32,929 bases of DNA from Candidatus Magasanikiibacteriota bacterium (GTDB lineage: Bacteria; Patescibacteriota; Patescibacteriia; Magasanikbacterales; 2-02-FULL-50-9b), in the NCBI GenBank assembly GCA_023246755.1, contig JAHFHU010000009.1, positions 1-32,929 of the forward strand, read 5' to 3'. Both the position numbers and the translations under genes were made by a program. Positions 3,029 to 28,197 of the stretch are shown piece by piece; position 1 is the first letter of the stretch, and the number at the start of each line of letters is the position of its first letter. The notes below the pieces were generated by a model, which saw only the letters and a list, made by a program, of their open reading frames with translations, did no database searches and was not told where the DNA came from.

Positions 3029-5092
3029 CACTTCGATAATCACCGGCAGCACCATCGGTCGGCGCTTGGTTTGCGCGAACAAAAATTGTCCGACGTCGTT
3101 GCGAATTTTATTTTTGATGAATTCATCGAACGCTTGTGATTTGTGGTCCGACGCTTCGAGAATTTTGTGGACGAGCATGCGCGTTTTGTCGATGATCTCT
3201 TTGTTTTCTTTGACGAAGATGAATCCGCGCGAGATGATGTCGGGACTGCCGATGAGTTCGCCGGTGCGCTCTTCGATCGTCGCGATGACAACGAGCATAC
3301 CGTCTTCCGACATTTGCATGCGATCGCGGAGCACAATTTCAGAAACATCGCCGACACCAAGTCCATCAACCATGACATAATCCGCGGGCACGCGCTCTTC
3401 GGTCAAGCGGCCACCATTCACATCGAACGACATGATCTGTCCGTTGTCTGCGAGGAAAATATTTTCTTTCGGAACGCCAACACCCGCTGCGATGCGGCCA
3501 TGCGCCGCAAGCATAAAACGATTGCCGTGAATCGGGACGAAGAATTTCGGTTTGGTGAGGCGCAACATCAATTTGAGGTCCTCTTGTTTTGCATGACCAC
3601 CCGCGTGCACATCCATGTTTGCATAATGCACGACGTGTGCGCCGTGACGCACGAGCGTGTCTTTGAGACGCTGCACGCTACGTTCGTTTCCGGGAACGAC
3701 GGATGATGAAAAAATTACGGTGTCACCTTCTTGCAGGTGCAAAAATTTGTGTTCACCCGTTGCGATGCGCATGAGCGCTGCGTTCTTTTCGCCTTGCGCA
3801 CCCGTGCACAAAATTACCAATTGTTCATCGCGATATTTTCCAAACTCTTCTTCGGTGATGATGGTTCCGGGTTTGAATTGGAGGTAACCAAGTTCGTGCG
3901 CGAGATCAACATTTTTTTGCATCGAGCGCCCTTGGATCAAAACGCGGCGTCCATATTTTTCGCAGAGCGCGAGAATAATTTGTACGCGCGTTAAGAGCGA
4001 TGAAAATGTGCCGATGATGAGACGTGACGGTGCTTTGCCGATGATGCGATCGAGTTCGTCGAAGACGACCTGTTCTGAAATTTGGTGCCCCGGAGTGTCT
4101 GCGCCGGTTGAATCCGACATGAGTGCGAGCACACCTTTTGAACCAAACATCGCGATGCGATTAAGGTCGGCCGGCTCTTCGTTGACCGGGGTGAAATCAA
4201 ATTTGAAATCGCCGGTTACGAGTACCGTGCCAAATGGGGTGTGGATCGCGGCGCCGAATGCGTCCGAGATTGTGTGGTTGATGTGGAATGGTTCGAAGAT
4301 GAAATTTTTTCCGAGATGAAATCGTTCGTCTGCGTGTTGCACGATCACCATGTTAAGTTTCGGAAGGTTGGGATATTCTTCGTGGCGCGCGCGAACAATA
4401 CCGGCGGTGAGAGGCGCGGTGTAGATTGGTGGGTTGCCGATTTTTGGCAACACATGTGAGATGGCGCCGACATGGTCTAAATGTCCATGCGTGATGACAA
4501 CGCCGCGAATATTTTTTTCGCGGCCTTTGAACGTTGAGATGTTCGGGATGATGTAATCGATGCCCGGCATGCCTTCTTCAGGGAATTGAAGACCGACGTC
4601 AACGATGATGATGTCATCGCCACATTCGAGCACGGTGCAGTTACGGCCGATTTCTTCAAGGCCGCCGAGTGCGTAAATTTTGAGTTTGAGATTTGAATCC
4701 GCAGTTGGAGTTACGAGCGGTTCAAACACGTCGGCCTCGCGTTGTGAGCGTTTGACATCGATTCCTTCCGTGTTAAAATTTGGCGCATATTTTGCGTTGT
4801 TGCTTGTATGCGCGTGATACGCTTGGCGTTGTGCAAGCGGTGGAATGCCGTTGGTGTGTGTAGGACGCGGCGTTGGTGCACCTGCTGGCGCGTTGTGTGC
4901 GTATGATCCGCCGCCGCTGCTGCGATGGGCGGGCGGGCGCGACGAATTATACGGAGGTCGTGATGACGACGGACCGTTGCTGTTGAATCGGCGACCTGTT
5001 GCGGGTGTTGTTGTAGGTCGTCGTTGTGGGCTGATTCCACGTCGAAGTGGAGGGGTTGGCATCGAAGGCGATGCGGTTACGGGGGTTGGCAT
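3026..5092 (-). CDS. rnj: Ribonuclease J with a long disordered N-terminus
   Basis: A metallo-beta-lactamase/beta-CASP RNase combining 5'-3' exo- and endonuclease activity in mRNA decay and rRNA maturation (family knowledge). The 688-residue product has the zinc motif HGHLDH at 202-207, a GDFKFD motif, the beta-CASP GRSMQKN segment, an HAGGHAKQEDLK segment (HVSGHA-like in relatives) and the C-terminal domain. The first about 115 residues are low-complexity Pro/Ser/Arg/Asn and add roughly 120 residues to the usual length. They may be an RNA- or partner-binding tail. No clear promoter is seen. A palindromic element (5103-5243) occupies the upstream region, and copy A lies at the 3' end. Confidence 0.95.
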   Translation of the reverse strand: MPTPVTASPSMPTPPLRRGISPQRRPTTTPATGRRFNSNGPSSSRPPYNSSRPPAHRSSGGGSYAHNAPAGAPTPRPTHTNGIPPLAQRQAYHAHTSNNAKYAPNFNTEGIDVKRSQREADVFEPLVTPTADSNLKLKIYALGGLEEIGRNCTVLECGDDIIIVDVGLQFPEEGMPGIDYIIPNISTFKGREKNIRGVVITHGHLDHVGAISHVLPKIGNPPIYTAPLTAGIVRARHEEYPNLPKLNMVIVQHADERFHLGKNFIFEPFHINHTISDAFGAAIHTPFGTVLVTGDFKFDFTPVNEEPADLNRIAMFGSKGVLALMSDSTGADTPGHQISEQVVFDELDRIIGKAPSRLIIGTFSSLLTRVQIILALCEKYGRRVLIQGRSMQKNVDLAHELGYLQFKPGTIITEEEFGKYRDEQLVILCTGAQGEKNAALMRIATGEHKFLHLQEGDTVIFSSSVVPGNERSVQRLKDTLVRHGAHVVHYANMDVHAGGHAKQEDLKLMLRLTKPKFFVPIHGNRFMLAAHGRIAAGVGVPKENIFLADNGQIMSFDVNGGRLTEERVPADYVMVDGLGVGDVSEIVLRDRMQMSEDGMLVVIATIEERTGELIGSPDIISRGFIFVKENKEIIDKTRMLVHKILEASDHKSQAFDEFIKNKIRNDVGQFLFAQTKRRPMVLPVIIEV

Positions 5093-25554: not shown

Positions 25555-26067
25555 CTAAACCGAGATTCCTACGAGCGTGTCAGCGATTAGTTTCATCGCC
25601 GCACGTTCGATGAGGTTGTTCATCGTCGCGCCCCACTGATGCCATTTGATCGGCAAAAATTCTGCGTGGTGGGTGAAATATCCACGCATGATGCGTGTAC
25701 ATTTTGTGGCGTTCTTCAGACTTTGGAAGTTCACGTACGTTGGCAGCCCTCCCATCCTACGAGCGATTGAAGGGTCAATCGTCTCAGGGAGTCGGCTCAC
25801 GGGCAACTCCCATTCGATGGACGCAATGTTCCACGCATAATTTTTGACAGCAACGCATACGCAGCGACCGCGCGGGCCGATCATGATGCGTTCAATTCCG
25901 TCTAACGGACTTTTGACAACGCGTGACTCCTGGCCTGCGAGCACGATTCGAACAGTTTCTTGTGTGGTAAATTGTCCGAATTCTTGGCAGGCTGTAAGCT
26001 CATAGAAAACCCAGATGTCGTCCGGATTAAGTTTGACACGCAAGAATTGTTCAAGATCTTTTTCCAT
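25555..26067 (-). CDS. Hypothetical protein, second gene of a two-gene operon
   Basis: I do not recognise this 170-residue protein. It is a soluble, mixed alpha/beta sequence starting MEKDLEQFLRVKLNPDDIWVFYEL, with a central RIMIGPRGRCVCVAVKNYAW stretch and a C-terminal helix. A GGAGG site lies 7 bases before the ATG. It starts 22 bases after the upstream gene ends, so the two are probably co-transcribed and may function together. Confidence 0.65.
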   Translation of the reverse strand: MEKDLEQFLRVKLNPDDIWVFYELTACQEFGQFTTQETVRIVLAGQESRVVKSPLDGIERIMIGPRGRCVCVAVKNYAWNIASIEWELPVSRLPETIDPSIARRMGGLPTYVNFQSLKNATKCTRIMRGYFTHHAEFLPIKWHQWGATMNNLIERAAMKLIADTLVGISV

Positions 26068-26089: not shown

Positions 26090-26443
26090 TTAGCGTTGTA
26101 ATACCCACAACACCATCAAATGAAGTTGTTTAATGTTTTCAGCATCGAACACACCGATTGGCGTGTTTATTTGCTCGTACTCACGGTGGTGACTTCGAGC
26201 TTCACCGATGTTGTGGATGTTGCCACCCAAAAATGTGTGCGACCAGATACCGCGATCGAGGTCGATTCTAACGCCGTATTTGTTGAGGTTTTGGCGTGTT
26301 GGGCGGACGAGCGCGACGCTGCATCCTGATCCATCAACCACCATCAGCACGAGGTGTTTTGAGCGGTACGGTTTTTTTAGGATCTGATAGTCTGCAACTG
26401 TTTTCCTCTGTTTTTCGATGTATGCATCCCAGACATTGCTCAT
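26090..26443 (-). CDS. Hypothetical protein, first gene of a two-gene operon
   Basis: I do not recognise this 117-residue soluble protein. It has a basic N-terminal helix, a KHLVLMVVDGSGCSVALVRPT beta-hairpin-like core and several His residues (SHHREYEQ). AGGAAG before the ATG is a good ribosome site. Its promoter is back-to-back with that of the MazF-like gene at 26589. Confidence 0.65.
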   Translation of the reverse strand: MSNVWDAYIEKQRKTVADYQILKKPYRSKHLVLMVVDGSGCSVALVRPTRQNLNKYGVRIDLDRGIWSHTFLGGNIHNIGEARSHHREYEQINTPIGVFDAENIKQLHLMVLWVLQR

Positions 26444-26588: not shown

Positions 26589-26990
26589 ATGTTTGGAATC
26601 ATTGCGCAGTTTAGAAATTGGTGCGGTCAGAAGGCTGAGTTGCATACAGGTACTGATGAGCCACTGATGTTTCGACAAGGAGAGATTTGGTGGTGCAGTA
26701 TCGGAATGAATGTGGGGAGCGAGCTATTTGGGAAAGGTGATCGATTTTTGCGTCCGGTTTTGGTACTCAAAAAATTTAGCAGAACCATGTTTCTTGGATT
26801 ACCACTAACGCTTCGTGAAAAACAAGGAAGTTGGTTTGTGGAAACTAATGTTGGCAGCGTACGTCGATGGGCGATACTAAGTCAGGCGCGCACGTATGAT
26901 TCTCGGCGATTTAACAATTGTGTTGGCGAGGTTGATCGCGAAACTCTCTCCCGGATTTTGTTGCAGTTTGTAAAATTAATTTCCTCTTAA
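26589..26990 (+). CDS. PemK/MazF-like endoribonuclease 1
   Basis: Probably a ribosome-independent mRNA interferase of the MazF/PemK fold. The 133-residue product has the PemK core FRQGEIWWCSIGMNVGSELFGKG, RPVLVLKK, FLGLPLT and a late ILSQARTYDSRR strand-helix. An unusual N-terminal helix of about 28 residues (FGIIAQFRNWCGQK) precedes it. A strong AAGGAGGG site sets the start. No small antitoxin gene lies upstream, the usual place in mazEF or pemIK. Instead a minus-strand small RNA unit ends at its stop codon. A paralogue lies at 27708. Confidence 0.85.
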   Translation: MFGIIAQFRNWCGQKAELHTGTDEPLMFRQGEIWWCSIGMNVGSELFGKGDRFLRPVLVLKKFSRTMFLGLPLTLREKQGSWFVETNVGSVRRWAILSQARTYDSRRFNNCVGEVDRETLSRILLQFVKLISS

Positions 26991-27044
26991 AAAAATCATC
27001 ACCCGCCCATTGCTGGGCGGGATCGCTGGGTAACCCCAAAGTAT
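26990..27044 (-). ncRNA. Predicted small antisense RNA 1
   Basis: On the minus strand a promoter (27051-27079) is followed by about 55 bases containing TTGGGGTTACCCAGCGAT, then a CCCGCCCA/TGGGCGGG hairpin closed by a GCAA tetraloop, then TGATGATTTTTTT. The terminator's T-run overlaps the stop codon of MazF-like gene 1. The + strand has no T-run here, so the terminator acts only on minus-strand transcription. Start and end are estimated from promoter and T-run. Confidence 0.6.
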
Positions 27045-27050
27045 GTTTGA

Positions 27051-27079
27051 ATGATAGCGCGGCTCGTTTTAGTTGTCAA
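27051..27079 (-). promoter_or_regulatory. Promoter of small RNA 1
   Basis: Minus strand: TTGACA (27074-27079), 17-base spacer, TATCAT (27051-27056). The -35 hexamer overlaps the -35 of the forward promoter at 27073. Confidence 0.7.
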
Positions 27080-27100
27080 ATTGTGTGGCGGTATGATAAT
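27073..27100 (+). promoter_or_regulatory. Promoter of the RelE/PBECR-like gene
   Basis: TTGTCA (27073-27078), 16-base spacer, GATAAT (27095-27100). It shares its -35 with the divergent small RNA 1 promoter. Confidence 0.7.
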
Positions 27101-27133
27101 TTCATGGCATTACAAACTATCGGGAGTAGTTTT

Positions 27134-27550
27134 ATGGAGGGATATAAAACAAAAGCAGGCAAAATCACGGGCATCACGTGGTCCGAGATTTCAAAAAAGG
27201 CGATGGTGCTGCATAAGCAGATCGCAGCAAGGACAAAGCGGCGGCCATATGTGCGCGCGGCGTACTTTGATAAACAGAAAATTTTTTTGGAATTGTATTG
27301 GCACCATCTGTACGAAAAACAAAATGTGCGCGATAAGGCGCGGCGCGTAAAATATTTTGCGTGCGCAATTGAATTGATTGAGCGGTCGCGGATGGAACCG
27401 ACGGTGAAAGAAAATCCAAACCGGCATGGGGAATTGCTGTATCGTTTTGTGGGGACAGCTGCGGGCGGCGAAGTGTTTATTGTGCAAATCAAAGAGGTGA
27501 AGCGTACGGGCGAAAAATGGTTGATGTCAGTGTTTCCAAAAAATGTGTAG
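27134..27550 (+). CDS. Probable RelE/PBECR-like nuclease-fold protein
   Basis: The 138-residue basic product has KTKRRPYVRAAYFDKQKIFLELYWHHL-like and ARRVKYFACAIELIERSR segments, a NPNRHGELLYRF motif and a C-terminal VFIVQIKEVKR..KWLMSVFP strand pair. This resembles a family common in CPR mobile regions, probably RelE- or PBECR-like RNases; the assignment is from memory of patterns. The ATG at 27134 is chosen because an earlier in-frame ATG (27104) precedes the predicted transcription start. The leader sequence CATTACAAACTATCGGGAG is shared with MazF-like gene 2. Confidence 0.65.
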   Translation: MEGYKTKAGKITGITWSEISKKAMVLHKQIAARTKRRPYVRAAYFDKQKIFLELYWHHLYEKQNVRDKARRVKYFACAIELIERSRMEPTVKENPNRHGELLYRFVGTAAGGEVFIVQIKEVKRTGEKWLMSVFPKNV

Positions 27551-27560
27551 CGGGTTGAGG

Positions 27561-27622
27561 AAAAAACAGAAAAAGGCTCCCGCCAAGTTGTGGTGTATAA
27601 ACCACGGAGGAAGTCTTTCTCT
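27561..27622 (-). ncRNA. Predicted small antisense RNA 3
   Basis: Minus-strand unit between the RelE/PBECR-like stop (27550) and the MazF-like gene 2 promoter. After the promoter (27629-27657) comes a roughly 60-base transcript folding into a long imperfect hairpin with a perfect GTGGT/ACCAC top, followed by TTTTTCTGTTTTTT. Its sequence differs from small RNAs 1 and 2, but the position and polarity are the same. Confidence 0.5.
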
Positions 27623-27628
27623 GAGTTT

Positions 27629-27657
27629 AGAGTAGCAGGAGCGAATTGGGCTGTCAA
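27629..27657 (-). promoter_or_regulatory. Promoter of small RNA 3
   Basis: Minus strand: perfect TTGACA (27652-27657), 17-base spacer, TGC plus TACTCT (27629-27634). Confidence 0.5.
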
Positions 27658-27678
27658 ATTGCGTGGTAGTGTGATAAG
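27651..27678 (+). promoter_or_regulatory. Promoter of MazF-like gene 2
   Basis: CTGTCA (27651-27656), 16-base spacer, GATAAG (27673-27678). It is a diverged duplicate of the promoter at 27073 and again shares its -35 with a minus-strand promoter. Confidence 0.6.
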
Positions 27679-27707
27679 GTCTGGCCATTACAAACTATCG
27701 GGAGGGT

Positions 27708-28109
27708 ATGTTTGAAGTTTTGGAACAATTTAGAATTTGGTGCGGACAGAAAATGCGGTTGCATACGGAAACGCGTTCGTCGCCGCTGTTTAAACAGGGC
27801 GAGGTGTGGTGGTGTGCAATCGGCATGAATGTTGGGCACGAAATGTATGGCAAGGGCGCGTATTTTACGCGGCCGGTTTTGGTGCTTAAAAAAATTAATA
27901 CGGAAATGTTTCTTGGACTACCGGTTACGTCAAAAATAAAAACAGGGGTGTGGTATGCACCTGTTTCGTTTCATGAGCGTGCACGCACCGCTGTTTTATC
28001 GCAGGCTCGCGTGTTTGATGCACGGCGGCTTTCTAAACGCATATGTGCGCTTCCGGAAAATGAGTTGTTGGATGTGCAGAAACGTTTTGTTCAGTTTTAT
28101 GGCTCCTAA
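27708..28109 (+). CDS. PemK/MazF-like endoribonuclease 2
   Basis: A paralogue of the gene at 26589, the same length (133 residues), with FRIWCGQKMRLHTET, FKQGEVWWCAIGMNVGHEMYGKG, RPVLVLKK, MFLGLPVT and VLSQARVFDARR. A GGGAGGG site precedes the ATG. As with gene 1 there is no adjacent protein antitoxin gene, and its stop codon overlaps the terminator of a minus-strand small RNA. Conserved core residues suggest an active RNase rather than a decayed copy. Confidence 0.85.
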   Translation: MFEVLEQFRIWCGQKMRLHTETRSSPLFKQGEVWWCAIGMNVGHEMYGKGAYFTRPVLVLKKINTEMFLGLPVTSKIKTGVWYAPVSFHERARTAVLSQARVFDARRLSKRICALPENELLDVQKRFVQFYGS

Positions 28110-28162
28110 AAATATTCATCCCACGTCTTGCGACGTGGGAATCGGTGGGTAACCCCAATAAT
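28108..28162 (-). ncRNA. Predicted small antisense RNA 2
   Basis: On the minus strand a consensus promoter (28169-28197) is followed by about 55 bases: TTGGGGTTACCCACCGAT as in small RNA 1, then CCCACGTC/GACGTGGG closed by a GCAA tetraloop, then ATGAATATTTTT. Five stem pairs differ from RNA 1 yet still pair. The T-run overlaps the stop codon of MazF-like gene 2. Confidence 0.65.
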
Positions 28163-28168
28163 GAACAA

Positions 28169-28197
28169 ACTATACCGCACTAGATTTCAGTTGTCAA
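28169..28197 (-). promoter_or_regulatory. Promoter of small RNA 2
   Basis: Minus strand: perfect TTGACA (28192-28197), 17-base spacer, TATAGT (28169-28174). The -35 overlaps that of the tyrS promoter. Confidence 0.75.

Follow-up and report, generated by a model that had tools for sequence, protein, structure and literature searches.

Conserved Convergent RNA Genes at the 3' Ends of Two Families of Putative RNase Toxins in Patescibacteria

Patescibacteria are tiny bacteria of parasitic type. The stretch of DNA considered here (the window) comprises the 32,929 nucleotides (nt) of contig JAHFHU010000009.1 from a Candidatus Magasanikiibacteriota bacterium of this group (assembly GCA_023246755.1). 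It carries three plus-strand genes, starting at positions 26589, 27134 and 27708, that encode putative toxins of the ribonuclease (RNase) type. Each gene is opposed tail to tail by a minus-strand unit with a promoter, a short structured RNA and an intrinsic terminator. Two RNA families, RNA-A and RNA-B, are distinguished, and together with their toxin genes they probably form toxin-antitoxin modules in which the RNA binds the toxin in trans.

Organization of the Three Loci

Toxin gene A1 (26589..26990) encodes a PemK/MazF-like protein of 133 amino acids (aa) that matches Pfam PF02452 (E=1.5e-8) and is 48% identical to the product of gene A2 (27708..28109; 133 aa, PF02452 at E=1.4e-11), a PemK/MazF-like protein with a MazF fold. 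Gene B (27134..27550) encodes a predicted RNase of 138 aa with a weak resemblance to the BECR/RelE-type fold. The minus-strand promoters facing these genes are TTGACA-N17-TATCAT for RNA-A1 (27079-27051), TTGACA-N17-TACTCT for RNA-B (27657-27629) and TTGACA-N17-TATAGT for RNA-A2 (28197-28169). Sequences of the form TTGACA-N17-TANNNT, with at most one mismatch, occur 17 times in the window vs 6.65 expected. A candidate plus-strand promoter of gene B (27073..27100; TTGTCA-N16-GATAAT) has its -35 region in common with the RNA-A1 promoter, and since the plus-strand TTGTCA also serves as the -35 element of the next gene, part of this sequence has a second cause for conservation.

The predicted transcripts RNA-A1 (26989..27046, with its start set by the distance from the -10 box) and RNA-A2 (28108..28162), both on the minus strand, share one layout: a leader, hairpin 1 (GGGGUUACCC), CGAU, a GC hairpin with a GCAA loop, and a T-run. 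The stems of the two terminal hairpins differ, but the GCAA loop is identical. An 18-base block common to both units (TTGGGGTTACCCANCGAT) has just two copies in the 920 kb genome when three mismatches are allowed. RNA-B (27567..27624, minus strand; 62.8 bits to the RNA-B model) consists of a long interrupted hairpin, an inner GUGGU..ACCAC hairpin and a T-run. All three units fold better than their shuffled counterparts (z = -3.1, -3.9, -4.6), and chance hairpins are rejected on this ground and by the enrichment over control genes described below.

A previous sequence-only reading of this DNA had proposed three minus-strand small-RNA units whose terminators end at or near the toxin stop codons. 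The units are all present, with promoters, structured RNAs and terminators as described. The T-run lies on the stop codon in the first (26995-26989, gene A1) and the third (28112-28108, gene A2); the second unit differs, both in its long interrupted hairpin and in a T-run that is found about 17 nt beyond the stop codon of gene B.

Structure and Conservation of the RNAs

The RNA-A consensus reads 5'-ACAAAU, hairpin 1, CCGAG, hairpin 2 and a U-run. Of 47 aligned copies, 38 have the ACA starting 6 nt past the -10 box, at the predicted +1 position, and hairpin 1 most commonly sets in 6 nt after the start of the ACA (30/47). A first MAFFT alignment that mixed RNA-A types was unusable. In a structure-blind MAFFT alignment of sequences picked for having CCGAG, covariation in the proposed stems is 0.451 vs 0.200 after shuffling (0/500), and pairings slid out of register reach at most 0.24. 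A smaller independent set gives 0.413 vs 0.193.

RNA-B has a different consensus (AGAAAAAGGCUUUCGGCCGUGGUUUAUACACCACACUUAGCGGAAGGUCUUUUUU). In its alignment 94.2% of the cells are paired, and covariation amounts to 0.282 vs 0.209 shuffled (0/500), with slid pairings at or below 0.163. Three genomes (G122, G188, G344) carry tandem RNA-B, two units behind one promoter, in which the stems differ and yet each is internally paired. Two RNA-A copies each are found at L103 and L109. A known Rfam RNA is rejected as the identity of either family: across the window and 25 loci, only tRNA, rRNA and RNase P score above the gathering threshold, and RNA-A and RNA-B are unmatched.

Linkage of the RNAs to the Toxin Genes

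A minus-strand promoter, short RNA and terminator are present at nearly every PemK-like 3' end in the genus, and convergent RNAs are likewise found at such ends throughout the order and the class, and among the relatives turned up by scanning 85,462 species genomes. In a model-free count, the antisense promoter and terminator occur together at the 3' end of 91 of 155 intact PemK-like homologues vs 3 of 234 control genes. The antisense promoter alone (at least 10/12) is found at 107/155 PemK-like genes, 28/36 members of the gene B family and 15/236 controls. The generic terminator detector caught RNA-B in 1/36 cases, owing to the interrupted hairpin.

Searches that start from the RNAs lead back to the same genes. 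A blind scan of 381 genomes of the class with a first RNA-A model (R1; E<=0.01) returned 30 matches, of which 21 are convergent with and 1 is divergent from a PemK-like open reading frame (ORF), two of them being training sequences. With a further RNA-A model (R3), a blind scan of 380 genomes of the phylum placed all of its best 18 loci (at least 36 bits, several being training sequences) convergent with a PemK-like ORF (18/18). Applied to the PemK loci themselves, R3 recovers the RNA at about 100 of 159; most of the remainder carry variants recognizable by eye, and the window's own RNA-A subtype is scored poorly by this model. Weak RNA matches at L092, L094, L095, L097 and L295-L297, and an extra one at L041, were judged to be chance.

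The RNA-B model (R2) matches 47 genomes of the class; among 30 loci retrieved, an intact gene B lies opposite the RNA in 19 and a remnant in 5, and the other 6 have none. Approached from the protein side, gene B is found in 14 of 86 genomes of the order, and every intact copy from the protein search carries a convergent RNA-B (18/18); there are zero cases of an intact gene B lacking it, an asymmetry that resembles the behavior of an antitoxin. The homologous toxins, which the sequence-only reading had singled out as a test of its proposal, keep their RNA units across the phylum, and it is almost certain that conserved RNA genes are tied to two toxin families.

Solitary copies also occur. On another contig of the source genome (C7, locus L258), a 68.6-bit RNA-B copy (4221-4278, minus strand) has no adjoining gene B, with partial GUGGUUUAUAnACCAC repeats in its vicinity. 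A 41-bit RNA-A with a good promoter lies on contig C8 of the same genome (L076; 1754-1823, plus strand) with no PemK gene, and may possibly be a solitary antitoxin.

The Two Toxin Families

The AlphaFold model of family A (predicted local distance difference test, pLDDT, 84.5) has MazF as its best Foldseek match (E=7.9e-7), and the family profile matches 4mdx, a chain of a MazF-RNA complex. When this profile is aligned to Bacillus subtilis MazF, the arginine of the RP motif and a threonine are both kept. These correspond to the catalytic residues Arg25 and Thr48 (PMC7354611), so the MazF catalytic arginine and threonine are retained. An N-terminal W..K helix and a lengthened loop ahead of the RP motif are specific to family A. 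Gene B matches no family in Pfam, NCBIfam or PADLOC, and its confidently predicted structure (pLDDT 93.1) has no significant match in the structure search, the best being 6cp9, a CdiA toxin-immunity complex (E=0.077), and HigB2 (E=0.57). Of the MazF- and RelE-like RNases named by the sequence-only reading, the MazF-like assignment holds for A1 and A2, and the RelE-like label for gene B is only a hint from these non-significant matches of a modeled structure.

Family A is widespread. A genus-level search gives 27 PemK-like matches, spread over four of the five genomes, and the scan of 85,462 genomes gives 344 relatives, the best 80 of which are mostly from Patescibacteria. Others belong to Rickettsiales, Campylobacterota and other metagenome-assembled genomes, and relatives are also present on Campylobacter, Helicobacter and Nitratiruptor plasmids and in Campylobacter phages; a search of viral contigs found two relatives only. 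Convergent hairpin pairs are visible in the relatives outside Patescibacteria, and R3 barely recognizes the Campylobacterota and alphaproteobacterial copies. NCBI names the related proteins “type II toxin-antitoxin system PemK/MazF family toxin.” At two loci (L282, L284) PemK-like toxins are paired in tandem, so that arrays of modules exist elsewhere. One toxin subgroup (L015, L019, L006, L010, L012, L021, L028) has a GGAACC(C/T)..ATATATG-like leader right before the start codon.

In agreement with the earlier claim that the genes have no adjacent protein antitoxin, no upstream ORF recurs across 149 family A and 35 family B toxins, which argues against a protein antitoxin, and a hidden one is rejected. 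Distant MazF genes that do have an antitoxin-like ORF upstream (L053, L054, L055, L067, L068, L135) are without RNA-A, and an R3 scan of four of these loci (L053, L054, L067, L135) gave zero matches.

Mode of Action and Alternative Explanations

The locus may be understood as a two-part toxin-antitoxin unit, in which an RNase-type toxin gene is combined with a convergent, autonomous RNA gene at its 3' end. The RNA gene would be equipped with a sigma-70 promoter and an intrinsic terminator of its own and would yield a folded antitoxin of 50-65 nt, which, like the antitoxins of type III systems, would act in trans by binding the toxin protein. With a strong promoter to itself, the RNA would stay in excess, and when transcription halts the RNA would be depleted and the toxin released. 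In RNA-A the recognition surface may be formed by both hairpins together with the CCGAG linker, while the conserved 5' ACA might occupy the active site of the MazF-like toxin as a substrate mimic. ACA is the recognition triplet of Escherichia coli MazF (PMC7826846), which makes such mimicry suggestive; the +1 position of the triplet may equally reflect a promoter preference. It is very likely that the RNA serves as the antitoxin, and likely that it does so by contacting the toxin protein directly. A toxin-antitoxin unit with an autonomous RNA that binds its toxin in trans is probably the right explanation overall.

The sequence-only reading had instead suggested antisense control. RNA control is supported by the present results, but pairing with the toxin message is not. 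In a type I-like mechanism the RNA would pair with the toxin mRNA, at its read-through 3' end or in another part, blocking translation or causing decay. Most loci are indeed convergent, and complementarity between the RNA and the 3'-terminal 70 nt of the toxin coding sequence exceeds that of shuffled pairings. Such complementarity is expected from physical overlap, which is mostly the U-run alone. CjrA, encoded on plasmid pVir of Campylobacter jejuni 81-176, a plasmid that also encodes a family A homologue, is reported in secondary accounts as a type I antisense RNA antitoxin (PMC10470494; PMC7826846). Against pairing, the start region of the toxin shows no complementarity specific to its cognate RNA (P=0.43), so that pairing there is rejected as the main mechanism, and compensatory changes preserve the fold and not the sequence. 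At five loci (L020, L024-L027), moreover, RNA-A precedes the toxin gene in the same orientation, with a terminator after the RNA, which is incompatible with cis-antisense action, and at three others (L086, L130, L196) it is upstream and divergent. Furthermore, RNAs persist where the toxin next to them is frameshifted or eroded (L065/L088, L028/L029, L247, L252, L254, L267, L271), the pattern expected when a toxin is lost under a retained antidote. These sense-strand and divergent copies, the compensatory stems, the tandem RNA-B and the RNAs beside broken toxins point to trans action rather than antisense pairing, and a type I-like mechanism is unlikely.

Two explanations dispense with an antitoxin. 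The hairpins could do no more than terminate or stabilize the toxin mRNAs at their 3' ends, with the minus-strand promoters arising as by-products of neighboring plus-strand promoters; in the window, the TTGTCA that belongs to the plus-strand promoter of the next gene does read TTGACA on the minus strand. This is highly improbable given that the T-run lies on the minus-strand side, that the spacing between promoter and RNA 5' end is fixed, that promoters are enriched at toxin ends over controls, and that the RNAs are found without toxins and in sense orientation upstream. Alternatively, a conserved regulatory RNA might be linked to these genes yet not be an antitoxin, for instance as a mobile structured element riding with the toxin or as a sponge for other RNAs. 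Orphan RNAs occur, and at L089 (1501-1561) one RNA-A, with no toxin, is convergent with a REP-associated transposase gene (Y1-type, by eye). The near one-to-one link to two unrelated toxin families, and the fact that the toxins were found to have no other partner, make this a poor prospect as well.

Several observations nevertheless weigh against trans action through the toxin protein, or at least restrict it. The convergent layout of most loci is equally explained by an antisense mechanism. The RNA is usually one unit of 50-65 nt, unlike most type III antitoxins, and a pseudoknot is not demonstrated in these RNAs. The invariance of CCGAG in the covariation alignment is a product of how its sequences were selected, and beyond Patescibacteria, where the RNA model hardly matches, homology is gauged from the layout and from a common leader and first hairpin recognized by eye.

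Comparison with Known Systems

Among the closest parallels are the type III systems (ToxIN, CptIN, TenpIN; AbiQ), which likewise combine an RNase toxin of MazF/Kid fold, as in family A, with a structured RNA antitoxin, and in which a terminator divides the RNA from other transcription (PMC5086642). The upstream-sense loci (L020, L024-L027) reproduce the type III layout, and RNA-B is at times in tandem. By contrast, most of the loci described here, including all three in the window, are convergent with a promoter of their own, and a single unit usually takes the place of tandem antitoxin repeats. Membership in a known type III family was considered by sequence; the family A toxins are recognizable PemK/MazF relatives that match PF02452, and family B, which is not MazF-like, has no match in any of Pfam, NCBIfam and PADLOC. 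AbiF-RCd22 of Clostridioides difficile also involves a short noncoding RNA with two motifs that acts in trans by direct toxin binding, and RCd22 has been likened to the antitoxins of type III (PMC12373285). However, its RNA is upstream, co-transcribed with the toxin and unrelated to those reported here, and the toxin belongs to Abi_2/AbiF, kin to Cas13 ancestors.

Family A shares its fold and catalytic residues with the toxins of the type II systems MazEF and PemIK, from which it differs in the lack of a recurring upstream protein antitoxin, the extra N-terminal helix and the longer loop before the RP motif. The toxins are soluble proteins of 133-138 aa, with a MazF fold in family A, and not the small hydrophobic membrane peptides of type I systems; the antisense layout of that type holds at most loci and fails at the upstream-sense and divergent ones. 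CjrA is an RNA antitoxin encoded on the same plasmid as a family A homologue (45% identity over 113 aa), and was classed as type I antisense (Shen et al., 2016, via PMC10470494 and PMC7826846). Should CjrA prove to be the convergent RNA of the pVir PemK gene, it would constitute one experimental precedent, and its reclassification would be favored.

No prior description of such a convergent RNA and toxin arrangement was found in the open-licence literature. The balance leans toward a class of toxin-antitoxin module that joins an RNase toxin, drawn from at least two unrelated families, to a protein-binding RNA antitoxin that is convergent, self-transcribed, structured and of a single unit. This class would be widespread among Patescibacteria and reach other phyla, plasmids and phages, and its toxins would so far have been filed, wrongly, under orphan or type II PemK. 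If so, PemK/MazF genes now seen as “orphans,” which number in the hundreds (a single scan gave 344 relatives), would gain their missing partner, and two new RNA families, overlooked by annotation pipelines, would be added. Such a class would also mean that RNA antitoxins can do without co-transcription or repeats, and would connect, in a way open to testing, the MazF toxins of type II with the RNA-controlled toxins of type III, which have the fold in common.

Neighboring Features of the Window

Two minus-strand genes (25555-26067 and 26090-26443) adjoin the toxin cluster, and a Pfam search assigns them to no family. Within the cluster, a 53-nt repeat, 83% identical, is found at 27074-27126 and 27652-27704, upstream of the unrelated toxin genes B and A2. 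It holds plus-strand promoters and a common CATTACAAACTATCGGGAG leader, which suggests either that the two genes share signals for toxin expression or that a module was duplicated.
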